Source: an uncultured Clostridia bacterium
GTDB lineage: Bacteria > Bacillota > Clostridia > Oscillospirales > Ruminococcaceae
NCBI GenBank assembly: GCA_947600065.1
Contig: CANQFZ010000014.1
Coordinates: 1 to 40,590, forward strand
Direction: 5' to 3'
DNA: 40,590 nt
The translations under genes and the position numbers were made by a program. Of the stretch, positions 11,173-35,574 are shown one piece after another; position 1 is the first letter of the stretch, and every line of letters starts with the position of its first letter. A model generated the notes under the pieces. The model made no database searches and had not been told where the DNA came from. It saw only the letters and a program-made list of their open reading frames with translations.

Positions 11173-11578
11173 TGTTTCCCTCTAACTCTTTCATGTACGA
11201 ATTCAATATCCCGTTTATAAACGAGCTGTCCGATTTAAGAGAATATTTCTTTGAAAGCTCGACAGCTTCGTTTATTGCCACGACATTAGGGATCTTTTCA
11301 CAATATTTCATCTCATAAACAGCGATCTTAAGTATAACGATATTGACCTTTGCAATACGCGCGACCGACCGCGTCTTTGAATATTTCGAGATCACTCCGA
11401 GAATTTCCTCGTCATGCTCTAAAACTCCCCGCACAAGCTCGTCCGTCTGTTCGTTTTTCGCCATATCGAAAGCTTCGGAATTAAGCTCGTCTATCTCGTC
11501 CGGAGATGTTCCGAAAAGCGTCTGATAGAGTATCAGAAAAGCGCCCTCGCGTATCTCGCTTCTTTTAAGCTTGCTCAT
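11159..11578 (-). CDS. nusB: Transcription antitermination factor NusB
   Basis: All-helical RNA-binding protein that with NusE (S10) binds boxA and prevents premature termination of rRNA transcription. The 139-residue protein shows REGAFLILYQTLFG near the N-terminus and RIAKVNIVILKIAVYEM followed by IPNVVAINEAVELSKKYSLKSDSSFINGILN, the conserved C-terminal core. A longer in-frame start exists at 11599 inside asp23, but MSKLKRSE at 11578 aligns with family starts and has GGGGTGG close upstream, so it is preferred. It overlaps asp23 by 14 nt. Confidence 0.94.
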   Translation of the reverse strand: MSKLKRSEIREGAFLILYQTLFGTSPDEIDELNSEAFDMAKNEQTDELVRGVLEHDEEILGVISKYSKTRSVARIAKVNIVILKIAVYEMKYCEKIPNVVAINEAVELSKKYSLKSDSSFINGILNSYMKELEGNNGER

Positions 11579-11939
11579 TATCCACCCCGACATCTTCATC
11601 TTCTTTAAAGCTTACGCCCGCTATGCCGACATCTACCTTTGTCACAGTAAAACCCGTCATGTTCTGGACAGCTGACTTAACGCTCTTTTGTACGTTTTCT
11701 GCGGCTTTTACGGCATTATAACCTTCTTCGATAAATATTTCAAGTTTTATCGCCGCAGTTTCTCCCGAAATTTTCGCGCGAACGGGAGACTTTCTCATAA
11801 GTTTTGAAAATGCGTCCTCGCTTTCTGTAGGTCTAAACTTTACGCCTTCTATTTCAAGAGCGGCTGTCTGGGCTATTTTTACTATAACATTTTCGGAAAC
11901 TTTTATACTTCCGACGGTGTTGGTCTTATTTTTTTCCAT
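11565..11939 (-). CDS. Asp23/Gls24 family protein (YqhY-like)
   Basis: A 124-residue Asp23/DUF322 protein: GSIKVSENVIVKIAQTAALEIEGV at residues 10-33 is the family hallmark, followed by IKLEIFIEEGYNAVKAAENVQKSVKSAVQNMTGFTVTKVDVGIAGV. YqhY in Bacillus subtilis lies next to nusB and is linked to control of acetyl-CoA carboxylase; the same neighbour here supports a YqhY-type role, by analogy only. It is the first gene of the operon, with GGAGG upstream and a strong sigma-A promoter. Confidence 0.93.
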   Translation of the reverse strand: MEKNKTNTVGSIKVSENVIVKIAQTAALEIEGVKFRPTESEDAFSKLMRKSPVRAKISGETAAIKLEIFIEEGYNAVKAAENVQKSVKSAVQNMTGFTVTKVDVGIAGVSFKEDEDVGVDNEQA

Positions 11940-12012: not shown

Positions 12013-12166
12013 GTATTTTTTTACTTAATAATCAAAAAAATGAATAAAATTTTTTTAATATACAAATTTATGATTTCTAATCAATCTGTGAATTTACTTT
12101 TTATTGATTATGCAGTAACAAAAAATTTATTTCGGAATATTATAAACTGAAAGCGAGGCGAACGGT

Positions 12167-12340
12167 ATGAGATGCCCGAAAAAGCGAAAACACAAAAACA
12201 ACGGAAAATTGCCGCTGATACTTGCGGCAGCGGCATTTCTGGGGGCTATTATGTGCATTTCGTTTTTTTCGTTTAAGGTCATGCTGTTTATAATCGCTAT
12301 TTTGCTTATTGTTCTGGGGATATTTTTGCTTAAGATGTGA
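12167..12340 (+). CDS. Small membrane protein next to spoVM (57 residues)
   Basis: Unrecognised small gene. The basic, polar N-terminus MRCPKKRKHKNNGKLP is followed by two closely spaced hydrophobic stretches: LILAAAAFLGAIMCISFFSF (about residues 17-36) and VMLFIIAILLIVLGIFLL (38-55), ending KM. This fits a helical hairpin or a single long segment, with the basic end expected in the cytoplasm. Upstream is a modest purine-rich site (GCGAGGCG). The stop is 13 nt before spoVM, and the two almost surely share a transcript. Its role may be linked to the forespore membrane surface or coat assembly, by association only. It is antisense to both flanking operons. Confidence 0.72.
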   Translation: MRCPKKRKHKNNGKLPLILAAAAFLGAIMCISFFSFKVMLFIIAILLIVLGIFLLKM

Positions 12341-12353
12341 GAGGAGCGATTTT

Positions 12354-12437
12354 ATGAAGGTTGTTGTTGTCAAAAGTCCGAAAATGTTTACGGGCCTGTT
12401 GAGGCTGGTGTTCGGTATCAGGAACGAACAAAACTGA
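12354..12437 (+). CDS. spoVM: Stage V sporulation protein SpoVM
   Basis: A 27-residue peptide, below usual gene-calling limits. It starts MKVVVVKSPKMF and ends in FGIRNEQN. Position by position it keeps the SpoVM landmarks known from Bacillus subtilis: M1-K2, K7, P9, K10, G14, R17, G21. In Bacillus this amphipathic helix senses the positive curvature of the outer forespore membrane and anchors the SpoIVA coat platform. A strong GAGGAG sits 8 nt before the ATG. The linked genes in this window are the spoIIIA operon and Asp23; in Bacillus spoVM is also near an Asp23 paralogue (yloU) but in another locus. Transcription in the mother cell under sigma-E is expected from Bacillus, but I could not identify a convincing sigma-E promoter here. 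Confidence 0.9.
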   Translation: MKVVVVKSPKMFTGLLRLVFGIRNEQN

Positions 12438-12486
12438 TAAAACCGTGTAAAATCATCATTGCGTAGTCTAAGGGCTTAACGCCGGT

Positions 12487-12686
12487 ATACAGTGGACAGT
12501 GTACAGTATTCAGCAATGGCATCCGCTAACGCGGACATTGTTTAGATTGTTATCAAGTCTAAAGGTTTTCGAGCTAACCCGTTAAAGGTTGTTTGTATGC
12601 CTATTGAACAAAAACAATCTGAATATTATCCGCCGCAAGGCGGATACCGATGCTGTACACTGTACACTGTCAACTGTACACTGTAT
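12487..12686 (+). repeat. 200-bp imperfect inverted-repeat element with GTACAGT-type heptamers
   Basis: The left arm (12487-12535) begins ATACAGTGGACAGTGTACAG and ends in a small hairpin TCCGC-TAAC-GCGGA. The right arm (12629-12686), read on the minus strand, begins ATACAGTG, gains one extra 7-mer TACAGTT, then continues GACAGTGTACAGTGTACAGC and ends in the hairpin TATCCGCC-GCAA-GGCGGATA. The arms therefore match as terminal inverted repeats of about 50 nt differing by a heptamer. The 90-nt centre holds no gene. It resembles a MITE or REP-type intergenic element. It fills the 294-nt gap between spoVM and the spoIIIAH stop and may act as a transcription barrier between the converging genes. 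Confidence 0.75.
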
Positions 12687-12731: not shown

Positions 12732-13268
12732 TTATTTTACTTCTACGATGGTTATTTTGTCCGCGCTTACGTCTACCTCCGACAAGAGCGCGGATTTTAT
12801 CTTTGCCGCGCCCGCCGCGTCAAGTCCGTCTGTCTTTACGATAACGTTTGCGCCGTTTGCCGTTATGTAGCAAAGAGCGTCCTCAAAACCCTGTGCTTTG
12901 AGCATGGTTTCTATAGCGTTTTCGCTTGCTATAAGCCCGCTTAAATCCTGTGCGCTCGCTTCTGTAGAATTAAGCTCATCTTGCGTCATATCGCCGCCCT
13001 GATACATGACCGCAAGCATCTGCGCAGCCTCATCACGCGCCTGCTGCTTTTCAAGCCTTGCGCTCGCAAAATATGCGTCAGTATCAGTGTTTGCGACATA
13101 CTCCAGATCGCCGTAATTTCCGCCGACTTCTTCTGTCGGCTCGGTGATATCCTTCTTTCCGCTCTGCGCAATGAAATTCACCGCGACAGCTGCCCCCAGA
13201 AGCAGCGTGAGCGACGCTACGGCTAATTGTTTCTTTCCGATGATAAGATTGATTCTTTTCATTCTCAT
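12732..13268 (-). CDS. spoIIIAH: Stage III sporulation protein AH
   Basis: Mother-cell component of the SpoIIIA-SpoIIQ channel linking mother cell and engulfed forespore. The 178-residue protein has one N-terminal membrane anchor (QLAVASLTLLLGAAVAVNFIA), a linker, and a C-terminal YscJ/FliF-like ring-building domain (LSGLIASENAIETMLKAQGF, ANGANVIVKTDGLDAAGAAKI). The frame is open from a TTG at 13295, but ATG at 13268 has AAAGGAG 7 nt upstream and is preferred. It is the last gene of the spoIIIA operon; no clear terminator follows before the repeat element. Confidence 0.92.
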   Translation of the reverse strand: MRMKRINLIIGKKQLAVASLTLLLGAAVAVNFIAQSGKKDITEPTEEVGGNYGDLEYVANTDTDAYFASARLEKQQARDEAAQMLAVMYQGGDMTQDELNSTEASAQDLSGLIASENAIETMLKAQGFEDALCYITANGANVIVKTDGLDAAGAAKIKSALLSEVDVSADKITIVEVK

Positions 13269-13291
13269 AAGTTTTCTCCTTTTAATAAAAT

Positions 13292-13801
13292 TCAATATGC
13301 TACATAGACCTTTGAAATGCCGATATTAAGGGCTTTCGCGGCAATGTTAGCGACTTGCCCGCGTACTACGGGATCACTTGCTCCCTCGCAGACTATAGCC
13401 GCAGAACGCACAACAGGCATTATTTTTACCGTTTTCAGCGGTTCTTTGGAGCTTCCCGCAAGGACCACCTCCGTTTCTTCGGAATAATCGTTTTCTTTGC
13501 TTTCCGACTTGCTGTTTTTTTCATATACAACGCGCTCCGTTCTGTCTATTGTTACCATAACGCTGACTTTTCCCACTCCGTCTATTTGCAGGATAAGAGA
13601 GCTGAGGCGTTCTTCAAGCTCGTGTTCCAGCTTTGCGTAGTCTTCGCTGAAAGCCGTATCTTGTGATATACTGCTGTCATTTCTTTTGAAAAAACTGCTT
13701 AGCAATAACATCAGCATCACAAAAAGCCCGCACAGTATGGCTATTCTTCGCACCTTGTCATTAGAAAAAATCTGCTTTATACGTTCGCTCAAAAAAGTCA
13801 T
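13292..13801 (-). CDS. spoIIIAG: Stage III sporulation protein AG
   Basis: A 169-residue single-pass membrane protein (RRIAILCGLFVMLMLLLSSFF) with an extracytoplasmic ring domain: LEERLSSLILQIDGVGKVSVMVTID, then KTVKIMPVVRSAAIVCEGASDPVVRGQVANIAAKALNIGISKVYV. The last part is the conserved SpoIIIAG C-terminus. In Bacillus, SpoIIIAG forms a large ring in the intermembrane space. The ATG at 13801 (GGTGAGG just upstream) is preferred over the GTG at 13810. Confidence 0.94.
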   Translation of the reverse strand: MTFLSERIKQIFSNDKVRRIAILCGLFVMLMLLLSSFFKRNDSSISQDTAFSEDYAKLEHELEERLSSLILQIDGVGKVSVMVTIDRTERVVYEKNSKSESKENDYSEETEVVLAGSSKEPLKTVKIMPVVRSAAIVCEGASDPVVRGQVANIAAKALNIGISKVYVAY

Positions 13802-17377: not shown

Positions 17378-17414
17378 TTTAAGTTCCTCCTTTTTTTCTT
17401 GTCCGATATGTTAA

Positions 17415-17422
17415 ATTGTATT
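17415..17422 (-). promoter_or_regulatory. Possible sigma-E -10 element before spoIIIAA
   Basis: On the minus strand AATACAAT matches 7 of 8 positions of the Bacillus sigma-E -10 consensus CATACAMT, about 38 nt before the spoIIIAA ATG. The matching -35 region 14-15 nt upstream (GTTCTAA) is poor. The spoIIIA operon is sigma-E controlled in Bacillus, so the position makes sense, but the call is weak. Confidence 0.35.
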
Positions 17423-17479
17423 CGGAGGGAGGGCGTTTTAGAACTTCTATGTTTTCATATAAGGTTATTTGCTTAATAA

Positions 17480-28953: not shown

Positions 28954-31900
28954 TTAGCGTGATTTTTTCTTAGACTTTACAGCGCATACAGTAAACGCCG
29001 ACATTGAAACAAGCATTACTCCTACAAGTATTCCTATCGGGCTTCCTGTCGGAGGAACATCCTCGCCTTCACTCGGTTTTTCTTCCTTAGCGCCGCAGAG
29101 AGTGCATACGCCGTCTTTAAAGACATGTTCGCCGTATTCTTCTATCTCTCCGCATACGCACTCGCGATAATGGTGCTCGGAATCATACTTCCATTCGCCA
29201 AATTCGTGAACATGGTCGGAAGGCAGGCGCTCAATAACTTCGCCGTCAGCTATCTTTTCGCCGCAGCCAAGGCAGTAGGTGTCGCCCGTATAACCTTCTT
29301 CTTCGGTAGTAGCGGGTTTATGTCCTACGATATTAGTGCCGCCGCTGTGGGTCGTGCTGTCCTTTTCGGTGTACTCAAAGCCGCATACCTCGCAGTGCTT
29401 TCCGCTTTCGCAAGTCGCAGTGCCGCCCGTGTGAGCAGCCTTATCACTAAGAACATGACAGTTGGGATTTGTGCAGGCTGTCTGATGCCCTGTTTCATCG
29501 AAAGTTACGTTTCCTGAGAAATTATGCTGTTTTGCTTCTTCTATTACCGCGTCGCAGTCTTTGCAGCGGACTTCTGTTTCACAGTTATAGTCCTCGTCTG
29601 TGGGGGTATGCTTTGTTATTTCCCTGTAGCCGCAGACTGAACATTCGCGATAGTGATTTTCTCCGTCCGCAACATAATCGCCGAACGAATGTTCCGCAAG
29701 GTCTTCTACATGACCGCAGCTGCATTCGTGATAATGGTGCTGTGCATTGTAGAGCCAGCCATTAAATGAATGTACGTGCTCATCGGGCAGGCGCTCTAAA
29801 GTTTCGCCCTTTGAAATAAGCTCGCCGCAGGTTTCACAATATGTGTCGCCCGTATATCCTTCTGCTTCGGTCGTTGCGGGTTTATAGCCGTCGAGCCTTG
29901 TTTCGCCGACATGGTTATTTGGGTCTTTTTCGGTGTATTCAATTCCGCAAAGCTCGCAGTGAGCGCCGCTCGTGCAGGTAGCTGTTCCGCCGATATGAGC
30001 AGCCTTTTCGCTGGTCTTACGGCAGTTTACGTTTACGCACGCTACCCGGTGACCCGACTCGTCACCTTCTACTCGTCCCGCAAAGTTATGACTTTGCGCG
30101 GGAACTATAACGGCGTCGCAATAAATGCAGGTTATAGCCGTTTCACAGTTATAGTCCTCGGGCGTATGCTCGTGAACACCTACCTGGCGATAACCGCAGT
30201 CGAGGCACTGACGATAATGGGTGTCGCCGTCATTGTGGTAGTAATCAAATGAATGCTCTTTTATAGAGCTTGCGTCTATCTCGCCGCAGCCCGAGCATGA
30301 GAGCCAATGTTCTTTATCGTTATGTCCTTCTATGCTGAAATCGTGTTCGTGAACTTCTTCGAGCATAGGAATTACTTTTCCTTCGGACAATACCTGTTCA
30401 CAGCCGAGACAGTAAAGGTCGCCCGTATATCCGTCTGACTCATAAGTTGCTTCTTTTTCATTTCTGAGCTCTGTGCCGCCGACGTGATTTTTAGGATCTA
30501 ACTCTCCATAGTGAGTATGGCAAAGATCGCACTCGGCTTCGCTGCAGCAGGTAGCCGCTGTTCCCTGAACATGAGCTTCATGCTTTTCAGCGTCACAGTC
30601 GGGGTTTGTACATTCGAGCAGGTGGGTATTTTCATTGCCGCTTCCGGGTTTTACTGCCCAGGAGTGTTCTGCGCCTGCGGCTATCATTTCATACCCGCAG
30701 TCATCACAGAACGTAGGCGTTGTACAATCGTGGTCGCTCGTACCTTTATGCTCAATACGAAGCTGTGCCTCACAGCCCTTTATCGTGCAGTTATGATAAT
30801 GATATTCGCTGTTTGTATGCCAGTCTTCACACCAGCTATGCTCAAGCAATGCGGGAAGGACTGTATATCCGCACTCCGAGCAAGTTACCGCCTTATGGCA
30901 GTCGCCCTCATAACCGTCTTCTGCCAGCTTGTCGTGGGGCTCTACTTCGCTGAGAACTTTCTTGCAGACAGCACATTCAAGGTGATGTCCCGTTTCATCT
31001 GCAACATAAACCGCCTCGTGGTCGTGGTTTGCTCTAGAATATCCGCAGCCTGTGCAAACGTCGTCTACAAATGTATGTTCACTGACATAAATGCCCTCTG
31101 TATACTGATACTTACAGCCATCTTCTACGCAAAGGCGCGAATGAAGCTCTGCCTCGTGTCCCGAAACCGGAGCAAGAAGATTGTTGTTGAAGGGTGAATG
31201 ATGAGTTTTTGCGCTCTTTATTTCTTTTCCGCATGCAGCGCAATTTACAGCGGTCGTGCAGTCGCCGTCGTCAGTTCCAAAATGAGTTTCGGTCTGGACG
31301 TAATCGCAGTTCTTACACTGACGATAGTGGTTGTTTTTATCCCACGCCTGCTGATAATAATCGCCGAATTCATGCTCTTTCGCGGGGTTAATTACCTTTC
31401 TGCATACCTTGCAGCGTTCTTCGGTCTCGCAGTTGTTGTCGTCCGTATAAATGTGCTTTCCTGTAGCGGGAGTTGTCTTTTCATAGCTATCGCCGCATAT
31501 CGTACACTGATATGTTTCAACTCCACTTGTAGCGCACGTTGCGGAAACAGTCTTTACGAGAACATAATTATGTGTTCCGCCGAGATTTTCAACCTCTGTC
31601 GTATAAGTATCGCCGCAGTATTCACAGGTATGCTTAACTGTTCCCTTGTCAGTGCAGGTGGGCTTTTTCGTCATTTCTTCTTTGTAAGAATGAAGCGAAC
31701 TATACGCGGGCAACTCTTCGGTTTTCTTAAAGCCGCAAACCGAGCACACCCATTCTTTGAGACCGCTTTCCTTACAGGTTGGGTCTTTTACGGTCTTCCA
31801 AACGCCCGTATGTTCTTTGTTCGGCTCCATGGGAGAAGAGAACTTCTCTCCGCAGTCCGCGCATACAGACATCTTTACTTTGTCCTTTGTGCAGTCGCCC

Positions 31901-34900
31901 GAAGGTGAAGCCGCAAAGCTGCTTCCTACAAAGTGAGCATGAGTCGGGATCTCCAGAACGCTGCGTATTGCTCCGCACTCTGTGCATACCTCATAGGAAA
32001 TGCCGTCTATATCACAAGCCGCTTCTTTTACAAAAGGCATCCAGTAGTGCTGTGCGTCTGAATTTGCCGTGCCGCTTGTTTCAACTTCGATATAGCTGCA
32101 CTTTTTGCATTTCTTAATTGTATAAGTCAGTCCGTCGCAAGTAGATGTTACTGTCTCTACATTTGAAAGGTCATGCGAATGTTCGGTCTTTTTAATTGCC
32201 TCATTATAGCTTTTAAAAGGAACATAGAACCTTCCGCAGTCTCTGCACTTATACATTGTAACTTCATATTTATTTTTAGTGCAGGAATCCTCAAATACAA
32301 AGGTAGAACGTCCTGAAAGAACTCCGTGATCTTTACCTACCTTTATCTCGCGAGTTACGGTCGAATCGCCCTTTACGGCGGTTATGGTGTAATTATAATA
32401 TTCGCCTGCCTTAGAGGGAGCTTCGAGAGTAAATGATGAACCCGCAGTGTAGTTCTTTGTGCCGCCCTGTCCCGAAACGGTGATAGTATCAGCTCCGAGA
32501 ACGTTTACTGTCGGTGCGCCGCAGAATGTATCGGAATCTTTTCCTCTGGTGATTGTGTAATACTCCTGATTTGGAACAACAACTATCACGGGGTCAGCCG
32601 AAACTACCTTCGGAACAACGGTAACTACTCCTGCCTTTTCTTCTTCAGCCTTTACGGTCTTGGGAACAAAGGATACATTGAGCATATCGTTTGCGCCGAT
32701 TATGTCGTAATAAGTGAGCTTGAAGGTGCCGTCAGCGCCAACAGCTATATTGCGTCCGCCAAACGAAACAACGTCTACGGTATATCCTTCCTTGGCTTCA
32801 ACCTTGAATGTATGGCTTTCGCCTTCTTCAAACGAGATAAAGCCGTCTGCTCCTACAGCAGGAACGTTGTCGCATGTAACAGAGCCGTTTCCGTCTGTTT
32901 TTACGATTATGTTATGGTCTTTCTCCATTTCGTCCGCGCTTATCTGAGAAGCGTCGAGAGCAACTATCTCAAACGGTGAGAAAGAATCGCAGAGTATAAC
33001 CAGACCATACTGTGTAACAGCGAGCGGGATTTCCTCTACGGAAATTATATCGTCGCCGTATTTGTGTCCGGGCTTATTTTCGTTTCCGCAATGTTTTGTT
33101 TCCGAGCAGCGTGTAAAGTGATAAGCCTTGAAGACTACTTCTTTATTCGCAACATCTTCCGCGTCATAGCCTTCGGGGAAACCAAGCTGCATTCTCAGGC
33201 TCTCGCCCTCGAGAACAACGGTCATTTTGCAAAGACGCGTAAAGTTTATCTCGTACATTTTGCTGCTCTTTATCGCAGACTCGGGAATATCAGTATATTC
33301 GTCAAATGCATCTGTAACTTCGTTATACTTAGCGCGGCTCATTCCGTCTTCTTTACCTATTTCTTCAACGGTGAGCATAAGACGACCGTTCATATCGTCT
33401 ATCTTCATCTGCTTCTGAAGCTCTTCGAGAGAGGTTTTAGAACCGTCTGTTCCCTCTACAGCGAGCTTGCTTAAATCGAGGTCGTCTGGATTATCGAGCA
33501 GATAGGGACGTCCCCAGAGCGCCCAGTCGATACCCTGGCTGCGGTATGCCATAGGACATACTGATGTCGACATAATGTAGCTCCAGGAATTGGGAGCTTT
33601 ATTTGAACGGCTGCCTACAAGTCCCGTTATTTGGAAATCATAAAGCGTAAGGTCGTCGGACCAGTTTGTACTTGCGCGGAACTTATATTCCAGACCTTTT
33701 ACGAAACAGTTTTCGGGATCGTGTACATGCTTTTTGTCACAATCATAGAGCCACGTAACTACGCCGTCATCTATGATATAGTCGCCGTCGAGGTCGGCAG
33801 AAGTCCTTGAGACAAGCTTCATTTCAAAGATCTCGCCGTCTCTGTCCTGCTGGTATGTGGCAAATTTTACCTGTATAGGCTCGTTTGCCGCTCTTCTGTA
33901 ATCTTCAGTCTCGGGCGCACCCCGGTTAGTTATGCCGACAGTGCTTATTTCGGACAGAACGGGGTGGTACATCTTGTCGTCAAATTCGATATGAATAGTA
34001 AACATCTGTCTTGTGTCAAGCTGACCCGTAGGAGCGGGAGACTGTCTGTAAATGCACGGAGCAGCCTCAAATGCAGCAGCGGCATTATAGAGAAGCTCTG
34101 TCTGCGAAATTATATCCGAACCGTCGCCCTGATAAAATCCTGTTTCGGGATCTTTGGAAAGTCCGTTTGACTCGGGACGATTGCCCCATGTTTCAAATCC
34201 CTTCGGACGTCTTGTAGTAAGCGCAAACTCAACATACTCGCAGGTCGCGGTATAGAGCTTCAAGTATTTGTCGGTGTCGTAGAAAAACTCATTATTCTCT
34301 GACAATACCAGCGCTGCCGCAACATAATACCAGTCTGTCATACTGTGCGAAGTCCCGTCGGGGTGCCGGTCGTACATTTTTATGAGCAGATAAACGCCCT
34401 GTTCTGCGGCTTTGCTCATGCCCATACCGTTATAATCAACGGTAAACTGACCCGCAGTTTCGCCTTCCATTTCGCCGTTTGCGGTATAGGAAACGTGAAG
34501 ACCCGTTACGGTATCGTTATAAACATCGTCGCCGTTATAGGTAGACTGCTCTATTTGAGGATATGTAAAGCTCATATTGCCGCTCGAAACAACTCCCGAA
34601 GGCAGCCAGTTGTTTCCGACTACTTCGCTTCCGACAAGGAGATAGCTGTCTACTTCGCCGCCGTCGTTTCCTTTGCCGTCGCCTTCGATACGTTTTCCGT
34701 CCTTATCGAGACGAATGGGGTCGTCCCATGTAGCGTCGAGAGCATACCATTTCTCCCCTATGCGTACCTCGTTCCACATATGCATTTCGGGTGAATTTCC
34801 CGAATTCTGTATACCGTGTACAAGCACGCAGGGAATATTCAGCCTATTCAATACCGCCTGCACTGTGCGGGCATAACCCTCGCAGACGCCCTCGTGTGTA

Positions 34901-35574
34901 ACAAGAGAATAGATAGTGCGAATATACGGCGCATTTTCGGGCTTACACTCCGTTTCAAACTTATACGAAATGCTCTTTGTAACGGTATCGTGTACAAGCT
35001 TTACCCTGCGCGCGTCTGCATCGGCGCTGCTAAGTCCTGTTACATCAAGATTCTGCGCAGCAGTTACTATTTCCGCTATTGCGGTGGAAATCTGAGCGTC
35101 CATTTTTTCAACTTCTGCGGCATCAAGCCCCGGAAGAAGGTATGTATCGGCTCTGCCTATGCCCATATAAACGGCATATTCTCCCGTCTCCTTCATTCCG
35201 ACGCGCATAGAAATATACGAGCTGTCGAAATACCATGCGTCGGGACACTCCAGATCAAAAGCGTCCTTTGCCGCGGAAAAAATATCCGAAAGCTTCGAAT
35301 CTCCGCCTAAATAGGCTTCGAGCGTTTCGGCGCTTATTGCGCCTTCTTCAATAAGATCTACGGTCTTTGTTCCGCCTTTAAGGCTGCCGTCCTTATACAT
35401 TTCATAAAGGACGTCATAAACATTCTTCGCCTCGGGGCTCAACTGATCGTAGAAATAATGATAAGGTTCTGCAGTTACAGCTGCTACCGCTTTGAATGTG
35501 TCGAGCCTGAAAACCGACAGGCAGGTAAACGCAACAGCAAATGCAAGAATACAGCTCATTACCTTTTTAAACAT
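28954..35574 (-). CDS. Giant cell-surface protein: transglutaminase-like domain, Cys-knuckle repeat array, sortase signal
   Basis: 2206 residues. A signal peptide (cleavage near residue 32) leads to a transglutaminase-like domain at about 185-290 with an intact triad: C231 in EGVCEGYA, H265 in HMWNEV, D280 in ALDATWDDP. Beta-rich and partly repetitive segments follow, including an InlB-like stretch (KTDGNGSVTC to NVSFV, about 895-975). From about 1085 to 2165 there are roughly thirty C-x-x-C-G type knuckles separated by His/Tyr-rich linkers. The last ones form modules of 188-192 residues. The C-terminus has VPPTG (2173-2177), a hydrophobic helix and KKKSR, a sortase signal variant of LPxTG. 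Family knowledge: such transglutaminase domains act as cysteine proteases or cross-linkers; metal binding by the knuckles is inference. RBS is AAGGGGG. Confidence 0.9.
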   Translation of the reverse strand: MFKKVMSCILAFAVAFTCLSVFRLDTFKAVAAVTAEPYHYFYDQLSPEAKNVYDVLYEMYKDGSLKGGTKTVDLIEEGAISAETLEAYLGGDSKLSDIFSAAKDAFDLECPDAWYFDSSYISMRVGMKETGEYAVYMGIGRADTYLLPGLDAAEVEKMDAQISTAIAEIVTAAQNLDVTGLSSADADARRVKLVHDTVTKSISYKFETECKPENAPYIRTIYSLVTHEGVCEGYARTVQAVLNRLNIPCVLVHGIQNSGNSPEMHMWNEVRIGEKWYALDATWDDPIRLDKDGKRIEGDGKGNDGGEVDSYLLVGSEVVGNNWLPSGVVSSGNMSFTYPQIEQSTYNGDDVYNDTVTGLHVSYTANGEMEGETAGQFTVDYNGMGMSKAAEQGVYLLIKMYDRHPDGTSHSMTDWYYVAAALVLSENNEFFYDTDKYLKLYTATCEYVEFALTTRRPKGFETWGNRPESNGLSKDPETGFYQGDGSDIISQTELLYNAAAAFEAAPCIYRQSPAPTGQLDTRQMFTIHIEFDDKMYHPVLSEISTVGITNRGAPETEDYRRAANEPIQVKFATYQQDRDGEIFEMKLVSRTSADLDGDYIIDDGVVTWLYDCDKKHVHDPENCFVKGLEYKFRASTNWSDDLTLYDFQITGLVGSRSNKAPNSWSYIMSTSVCPMAYRSQGIDWALWGRPYLLDNPDDLDLSKLAVEGTDGSKTSLEELQKQMKIDDMNGRLMLTVEEIGKEDGMSRAKYNEVTDAFDEYTDIPESAIKSSKMYEINFTRLCKMTVVLEGESLRMQLGFPEGYDAEDVANKEVVFKAYHFTRCSETKHCGNENKPGHKYGDDIISVEEIPLAVTQYGLVILCDSFSPFEIVALDASQISADEMEKDHNIIVKTDGNGSVTCDNVPAVGADGFISFEEGESHTFKVEAKEGYTVDVVSFGGRNIAVGADGTFKLTYYDIIGANDMLNVSFVPKTVKAEEEKAGVVTVVPKVVSADPVIVVVPNQEYYTITRGKDSDTFCGAPTVNVLGADTITVSGQGGTKNYTAGSSFTLEAPSKAGEYYNYTITAVKGDSTVTREIKVGKDHGVLSGRSTFVFEDSCTKNKYEVTMYKCRDCGRFYVPFKSYNEAIKKTEHSHDLSNVETVTSTCDGLTYTIKKCKKCSYIEVETSGTANSDAQHYWMPFVKEAACDIDGISYEVCTECGAIRSVLEIPTHAHFVGSSFAASPSGDCTKDKVKMSVCADCGEKFSSPMEPNKEHTGVWKTVKDPTCKESGLKEWVCSVCGFKKTEELPAYSSLHSYKEEMTKKPTCTDKGTVKHTCEYCGDTYTTEVENLGGTHNYVLVKTVSATCATSGVETYQCTICGDSYEKTTPATGKHIYTDDNNCETEERCKVCRKVINPAKEHEFGDYYQQAWDKNNHYRQCKNCDYVQTETHFGTDDGDCTTAVNCAACGKEIKSAKTHHSPFNNNLLAPVSGHEAELHSRLCVEDGCKYQYTEGIYVSEHTFVDDVCTGCGYSRANHDHEAVYVADETGHHLECAVCKKVLSEVEPHDKLAEDGYEGDCHKAVTCSECGYTVLPALLEHSWCEDWHTNSEYHYHNCTIKGCEAQLRIEHKGTSDHDCTTPTFCDDCGYEMIAAGAEHSWAVKPGSGNENTHLLECTNPDCDAEKHEAHVQGTAATCCSEAECDLCHTHYGELDPKNHVGGTELRNEKEATYESDGYTGDLYCLGCEQVLSEGKVIPMLEEVHEHDFSIEGHNDKEHWLSCSGCGEIDASSIKEHSFDYYHNDGDTHYRQCLDCGYRQVGVHEHTPEDYNCETAITCIYCDAVIVPAQSHNFAGRVEGDESGHRVACVNVNCRKTSEKAAHIGGTATCTSGAHCELCGIEYTEKDPNNHVGETRLDGYKPATTEAEGYTGDTYCETCGELISKGETLERLPDEHVHSFNGWLYNAQHHYHECSCGHVEDLAEHSFGDYVADGENHYRECSVCGYREITKHTPTDEDYNCETEVRCKDCDAVIEEAKQHNFSGNVTFDETGHQTACTNPNCHVLSDKAAHTGGTATCESGKHCEVCGFEYTEKDSTTHSGGTNIVGHKPATTEEEGYTGDTYCLGCGEKIADGEVIERLPSDHVHEFGEWKYDSEHHYRECVCGEIEEYGEHVFKDGVCTLCGAKEEKPSEGEDVPPTGSPIGILVGVMLVSMSAFTVCAVKSKKKSR
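29431..30573 (-). repeat. Tandem 188-192-residue modules inside the surface protein
   Basis: The equivalent His codons of the motif AAHxGGTATC lie at 29431-29433, 29995-29997 and (diverged, AHVQGTAATC) 30571-30573: spacings of 564 and 576 nt, i.e. 188 and 192 codons. Each module carries about six Cys pairs plus the element KPATTExEGYTGDTYC. The two modules nearest the C-terminus are clearly more alike than the third, showing recent internal duplication. Confidence 0.8.

Follow-up and report, generated by a model that had tools for sequence, protein, structure and literature searches.

The window, the whole 40,590-nucleotide stretch of DNA that we analyzed, carries a gene for a 57-residue membrane protein directly upstream of the gene for the sporulation peptide SpoVM. 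Judged from their sequences, such proteins are a family widespread among spore formers, including gut clostridia, and overlooked until now; a membrane protein of this kind accompanies spoVM in most examined loci outside Bacilli. On balance, and with modest confidence, we read the pair as a two-gene sporulation unit with one mother-cell-type promoter, in which the 57-residue protein would serve as a SpoVM-specific membrane co-factor in the outer forespore membrane. In B. subtilis, it is SpoVM that marks the forespore for coat assembly. The peptide is described as largely dispensable in C. difficile (PMC5607322). For the question of how clostridia mark the forespore, the linked membrane protein is a concrete and testable candidate for a missing part.

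The gene for the 57-residue protein (positions 12167–12340, plus strand) starts with ATG, follows a Shine-Dalgarno-like GAGG on the same strand (12155–12158) that has counterparts upstream of the gene in genus members, and encodes a protein in which two hydrophobic segments follow a basic N-terminus. After a spacing of 13 nt comes spoVM (12354–12437, plus strand), 27 codons long and preceded by the Shine-Dalgarno sequence AGGAG (12342–12346, plus strand), the ribosome binding site that had been assigned to it. Coordinates and strand of both frames are as originally predicted. The peptide had been named from the landmarks K7, P9, K10, G14, R17 and G21, all of which are present in the 27-mer, and the name is borne out by NCBIfam NF033436, whose cut-off of 31 bits is exceeded with 39.8 bits. 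A Pfam search with the 27-residue peptide gave no match at E ≤ 1. Its translation has the basic and amphipathic pattern of SpoVM, with K7, P9, K10 and R17 in place, and P9 is invariant in 33 aligned rows. In a related genome, the intact copy is followed at a distance of about 0.2 kb by a second, partial spoVM-like match with an internal stop codon (G006:C9:46764-46829).

The unit is flanked by two minus-strand genes that lie outside it: asp23 (11565–11939; Pfam PF03780, E = 7.2e-17), divergent from the unit, and spoIIIAH (12732–13295; Pfam PF12685, E = 2.4e-29 on 12732–13265), convergent with it. The original prediction placed the pair correctly on the plus strand between these genes, but its term "antisense" does not hold, as the unit lies wholly within the spacer. 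Antisense regulation is ruled out because the unit overlaps neither neighbor. The spacer between spoVM and spoIIIAH also contains an inverted repeat with 42-nt arms (12485–12526 and 12640–12681, 83% complementary) that resembles a small mobile or repeat element. Elsewhere in the window, a 2206-residue open reading frame (28954–35574, minus strand) starts, by eye, like a signal sequence, contains a transglutaminase-like stretch and numerous repeats with CxxC/H, and ends in a hydrophobic C-terminus and a basic tail, resembling a large repeat surface protein.

Substitution patterns show that the 57-residue frame does encode a protein and is under purifying selection. Pooled over nine genomes, pN/pS is 0.28 in the proposed frame; the two remaining sense frames give 0.99 and 1.30, and the antisense frames give 1.08, 0.46 and 1.53. 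Differences at the three codon positions number 313, 184 and 572. Comparison of the window gene with eight close relatives gave dN/dS values of 0.10–0.26, save for one pair at 0.61 with only three substitutions. These ratios, together with the codon-position differences, place selection at the level of the protein. Shortness is what would suit a chance open reading frame upstream of spoVM, a reading that conservation and coding selection refute almost beyond doubt. The original prediction had been staked on conservation of the frame beside spoVM and on its substitution ratios; the frame is conserved there and coding selection is seen, and what had been described as a basic-plus-hydrophobic frame codes for a small membrane protein whose gene is conserved alongside spoVM. 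Searches of the window protein against Pfam and NCBIfam gave no match at E ≤ 1, and 34 family members gave scattered weak matches, with at most 3 of the 34 hitting any one family and a best E-value of 2.2e-4. Membership in a described Pfam or NCBIfam family was rejected on these grounds.

To define the breadth of the family, we used three sets of genomes of increasing taxonomic range. The order set comprised 81 related genomes, 71 of which have a SpoVM match at E ≤ 1; one (G069) was dropped, leaving 70 loci. Every open reading frame of at least 30 residues within 1.5 kb on both strands of these oriented loci, 1866 in total, was scanned with an iterated profile seeded with 16 genus members. The profile retrieved 65 frames at E < 0.01, one per genome in 65 genomes, with the next frame at E = 0.11. 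All 65 lie on the spoVM strand and end 10–235 nt upstream of spoVM. Within the genus group, 40 of 43 genomes carry the pair. The class set comprised 196 genomes, 86 of which matched a SpoVM family model at E ≤ 0.1, and contributed 68 loci after removal of 4 already in the order set and 14 with weak or partial matches. The phylum set comprised 299 genomes, of which 70 matched the same model at E ≤ 0.05, and contributed 49 loci after removal of 4 already counted and 17 weak or partial ones; the match at one of the 49 (G527) proved to be something other than SpoVM, and this one is scored as a locus without partner. SpoVM exceeds the curated cut-off in just 6 of the 196 class genomes and 16 of the 299 phylum genomes, the others being accepted as frames that read as SpoVM.

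A retrained profile found 136 family members at E < 0.005 in 134 of the 187 spoVM loci: 65/70 in the order set, 39/68 in the class set and 30/49 in the phylum set, where the 30 genomes span 13 families outside the class. The phylum is taken to be Bacillota in view of the Bacillus-like SpoVM in some members and the named relatives in Oscillospirales. Every one of the 136 precedes spoVM on its own strand, and none was found elsewhere among the 4714 open reading frames within 1.5 kb. Among 80 named loci, which partly come from the same genomes as the other sets, 41 carry the gene. The pair, which had been taken for a local curiosity, recurs at most spoVM loci examined. At two loci (L104 in G211 and L153 in G234), a tandem of two family members precedes spoVM.

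The gene is missing at 53 of the 187 loci, so SpoVM can work without this partner. No partner is found at the locus named Ruminococcus albus (L251) or at that named R. flavefaciens (L248), where spoVM lies behind a frame that looks thiN-like by eye. Six loci (G532, G408, G461, G336, G485 and G293), which we take to be from Bacilli because of the likeness of their SpoVM to the B. subtilis sequence, have no upstream gene beside spoVM, and their genomes gave no family match at E ≤ 0.01 anywhere. At six Flavonifractor-type loci (L253, L262, L279, L280, L284 and L290), the partner position is occupied by a different or very divergent 54-residue frame that ends 3–4 nt before spoVM and scores E = 0.056–0.2 against the profile.

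SpoVM itself varies with the partner in part of the data. Among the named Oscillospirales loci, F12 occurs in 24 of 41 with a partner versus 0 of 39 without, and S13 in 6 of 41 versus 33 of 39, counts that are confounded by kinship. The partner-associated residue 12 reappeared in the related order set; the F12/S13 signal is absent from the class and phylum sets.

Linkage to spoVM was then assessed with position ignored, by searching 81 whole genomes with a 34-row profile. This gave 73 matches at E ≤ 0.01, including 62 strong ones at E ≤ 1e-5. Of the strong matches, 57 adjoin a spoVM that had already been found, and 5 occur in genomes without a SpoVM match. Inspection of these five revealed a previously unrecognized SpoVM-like frame directly after the family gene in four (G063, G064, G067 and G073), bringing the total beside spoVM to 61 of 62. 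The fifth, in G065 (L385), is a strong family match with no recognizable spoVM within 1.2 kb, and in the genomes searched it is the sole strong match away from spoVM. At this locus, a frame that we named DUF3794/SipL-like by eye starts about 0.4 kb downstream of the family member. The 11 weaker matches divide into four that adjoin spoVM and seven elsewhere. The family is thus a marker for divergent spoVM genes, having pointed to them in four of five cases; Galperin et al. (2012) left open whether distant versions of SpoVM exist in genomes where none was found (PMC3533761).

The surroundings of the pair differ between groups. In the order set, 28 of 65 loci have asp23 upstream in the opposite orientation, and 18 of 65 have spoIIIAH downstream, likewise opposed. 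In the phylum set, asp23 follows the pair on its own strand at 21 of 30 loci, and rpe precedes it at 15 of 30. These counts are minima, as the neighbors were identified by simple motifs and by phmmer in loci of short extent. The pair moves as a block and stays together while its surroundings change. The family gene almost always sits beside spoVM, which suggests that the two proteins probably work together in building the spore. An alternative that we consider possible, if rather doubtful, is that the protein has a job of its own in the mother-cell membrane, such as a part in cortex synthesis or in keeping the membrane stable, and is co-expressed with spoVM for timing alone. A shared transcript would suffice to explain linkage, lineages with spoVM but without the gene do exist, and SpoVQ, a spore membrane protein described as acting between coat and cortex in C. 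difficile (PMC8265636), offers a precedent. Against it, the linkage survives changes of neighborhood, and a whole-genome search of 23 chosen genomes that lack the gene at spoVM found no strong match in any of them, the nine weak matches in eight of these genomes reaching a best E-value of 8.4e-4 inside a 188-residue frame; timing alone would require neither.

Profile–profile comparisons connect the four sets in a chain, with scores of 48.2 (genus–order), 63.8 (order–class), 56.9 (class–phylum) and 39.3 (order–phylum). The direct genus–class and genus–phylum scores of 32.2 and 34.1 are modest against reversed-profile controls, which score 10.2–29.8; a further control, SpoIIIAC, is a single sequence and weak. 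The proteins are short and hydrophobic, and the profile was trained on its own finds. A single family is argued from this chain of links and from the fixed position next to spoVM, and some members may have arisen independently.

The members share a simple architecture. The N-terminal region has a net positive charge in 132 of 136, the C-terminus is neutral or positive in 130, and a proline occurs in the middle of the protein in 93. Two non-overlapping hydrophobic 17-mers are present in 125 of 136 and in the window protein, and the hydrophobic span has a median of 44 residues. AlphaFold predicted a single helix (residues 15–56) for the window protein, with pLDDT 78.7 and pTM 0.39, and two helices (residues 10–25 and 32–49) for a relative (L242), with a mean pLDDT of 69.4 and pTM 0.35; confidence is low in both models. 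We infer a hairpin in preference to a single helix, since a hydrophobic helix of 42 residues would misfit the bilayer, and the charge distribution suggests that both ends lie on the mother-cell side. Hydrophobic segments and spacing also bear on the idea that the gene is a leader, whose translation at the membrane would drive or time translation of spoVM, with the peptide itself being of minor importance. The short gap, 13 nt in the window with a median of 16 nt across the family, would suit such coupling, but it exceeds 60 nt in 14 of 136 members, the two hydrophobic segments are kept in nearly all, and the amino-acid sequence is under purifying selection (the pooled ratio of 0.28). We regard a leader role as very unlikely.

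A promoter-like motif, GTAAC-N15-GAATANNATR, precedes the unit at 12115–12144 on the plus strand. Of 40 genus members, 34 have GTAAC-N15/16-GAATA ahead of the gene, compared with a mean of 0.035 of 40 in mononucleotide shuffles; the 34 species are related and do not represent 34 independent cases. In the entire window genome (G000) the motif occurs in two places, one of them the site above, and a backward-pattern control matches once. Two sporulation genes from the same genus served as yardsticks. spoIIIAA is a sigma-E gene and dpaA a sigma-K gene in B. subtilis. For dpaA, 27 loci yielded 20 candidate sites with the consensus AC-N15-GCATANAATG; all matches fall below the curated TIGR02853 cut-off (0 of 43 genomes above it), and the genes are called dpaA-like for this reason. 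For spoIIIAA, the start was readable in 13 of 21 sequences, and reading by eye found GTTCTA or GTACTA some 15 nt ahead of the -10 element, which contains [AC]ATA in 12 of these 13. The region upstream of spoIVA in the genus is, by eye, mostly the end of another frame and was uninformative as a yardstick. The -10 element of the pair's motif resembles those upstream of both the dpaA-like genes and spoIIIAA, and its -35 element GTAAC contains the AC of the dpaA-like consensus, where spoIIIAA has GTTCTA. We propose from these resemblances that the promoter is of mother-cell type, sigma-E or sigma-K. At spoIIIAA (window about 17410–17450), close relatives have a -10 that starts with A, as in GAATA, and more distant ones a -10 that starts with C, as in GCATA, hinting at a shift in promoter preference. 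Co-expression of the pair, part of the original prediction, is probable in view of the close linkage, the single conserved upstream motif and the co-transcription of a similar arrangement in C. difficile.

In the SpoVM co-factor model that we favor, the mother cell would produce the 57-residue protein along with SpoVM, and the protein would insert as a helical hairpin, with its basic N-terminus and short C-terminus on the mother-cell side. The hairpin protein would sit in the outer forespore membrane, where it could help in the delivery, holding or stability of the SpoVM amphipathic helix, enabling SpoIVA to build the coat basement. Such a co-factor would be absent, perhaps lost, in Bacilli and several other lineages. 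A bolder version, which we put forward only tentatively and think likelier wrong than right, is that SpoVM, in most spore formers outside Bacilli, is one half of a two-part membrane device, the co-transcribed hairpin presenting or holding it in the outer forespore membrane; the pair would be old in Bacillota, and Bacilli, Ruminococcus and others would have lost the hairpin and rewired the coat basement to SpoVM alone. It is also conceivable, though improbable in our estimation, that the protein modulates the FtsH protease or otherwise shields SpoVM from proteolysis. Small hydrophobic proteins can modulate membrane proteases, and production together with a protease-interacting peptide would fit such a role. 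SpoVM reportedly interacts with FtsH in B. subtilis, a finding attributed to Cutting et al. in 1997.

The closest known arrangement to the co-factor unit proposed here is that of C. difficile, in which spoVM is co-transcribed behind CD25622, a gene for a 50-residue protein described as being of unknown function and sigma-E dependent (Ribis et al. 2017, PMC5607322). Like CD25622, the window gene lies directly upstream of spoVM and is of similar size (57 versus 50 residues), a likeness of place and size. CD25622 was called unique to Peptostreptococcaceae (PMC5607322), unlike the family described here, which spans many families. Ribis et al. report that heat resistance falls 3- to 5-fold when spoVM carries an insertion and equally when CD25622 does, the latter insertions being considered polar on spoVM; they inferred little role for CD25622 (PMC5607322). 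Because polar insertion mutants are effectively double mutants, they do not isolate the role of CD25622 alone. This mild phenotype is the strongest point against a major role for the family, together with the loci at which the gene is missing; the identical mild defects of the two mutants also fit a shared pathway. In the open-access library searched, PMC5607322 was the only paper found on CD25622, no title listed for spoVM-linked small membrane proteins reported a wider family, and no published experiment on a protein of this family was found.

Comparison with B. subtilis concerns both members of the pair. Like the B. subtilis coat basement peptide, the product of the downstream gene is SpoVM by NF033436 and has P9, a residue described as completely conserved (PMC5607322); unlike the window, the six loci with B. 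subtilis-like SpoVM have no such gene upstream. CmpA of B. subtilis acts at the SpoVM/SpoIVA step, the step proposed for the window protein; it differs in being a ClpXP adaptor that is described as confined to Bacillales and absent in clostridia (PMC5607322). Another point of comparison is SpoVQ (CD3457) of C. difficile, reported to be a membrane protein of the mother cell that is induced during sporulation, localizes to the outer forespore membrane and binds the basement proteins SpoIVA and SipL (PMC8265636). Compared by description, SpoVQ differs from the window protein in having one N-terminal membrane segment and a soluble part, and in being confined to Peptostreptococcaceae according to its authors (PMC8265636). 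SpoVQ is a precedent for a membrane protein from the mother cell that works with SpoIVA and SipL at this membrane.
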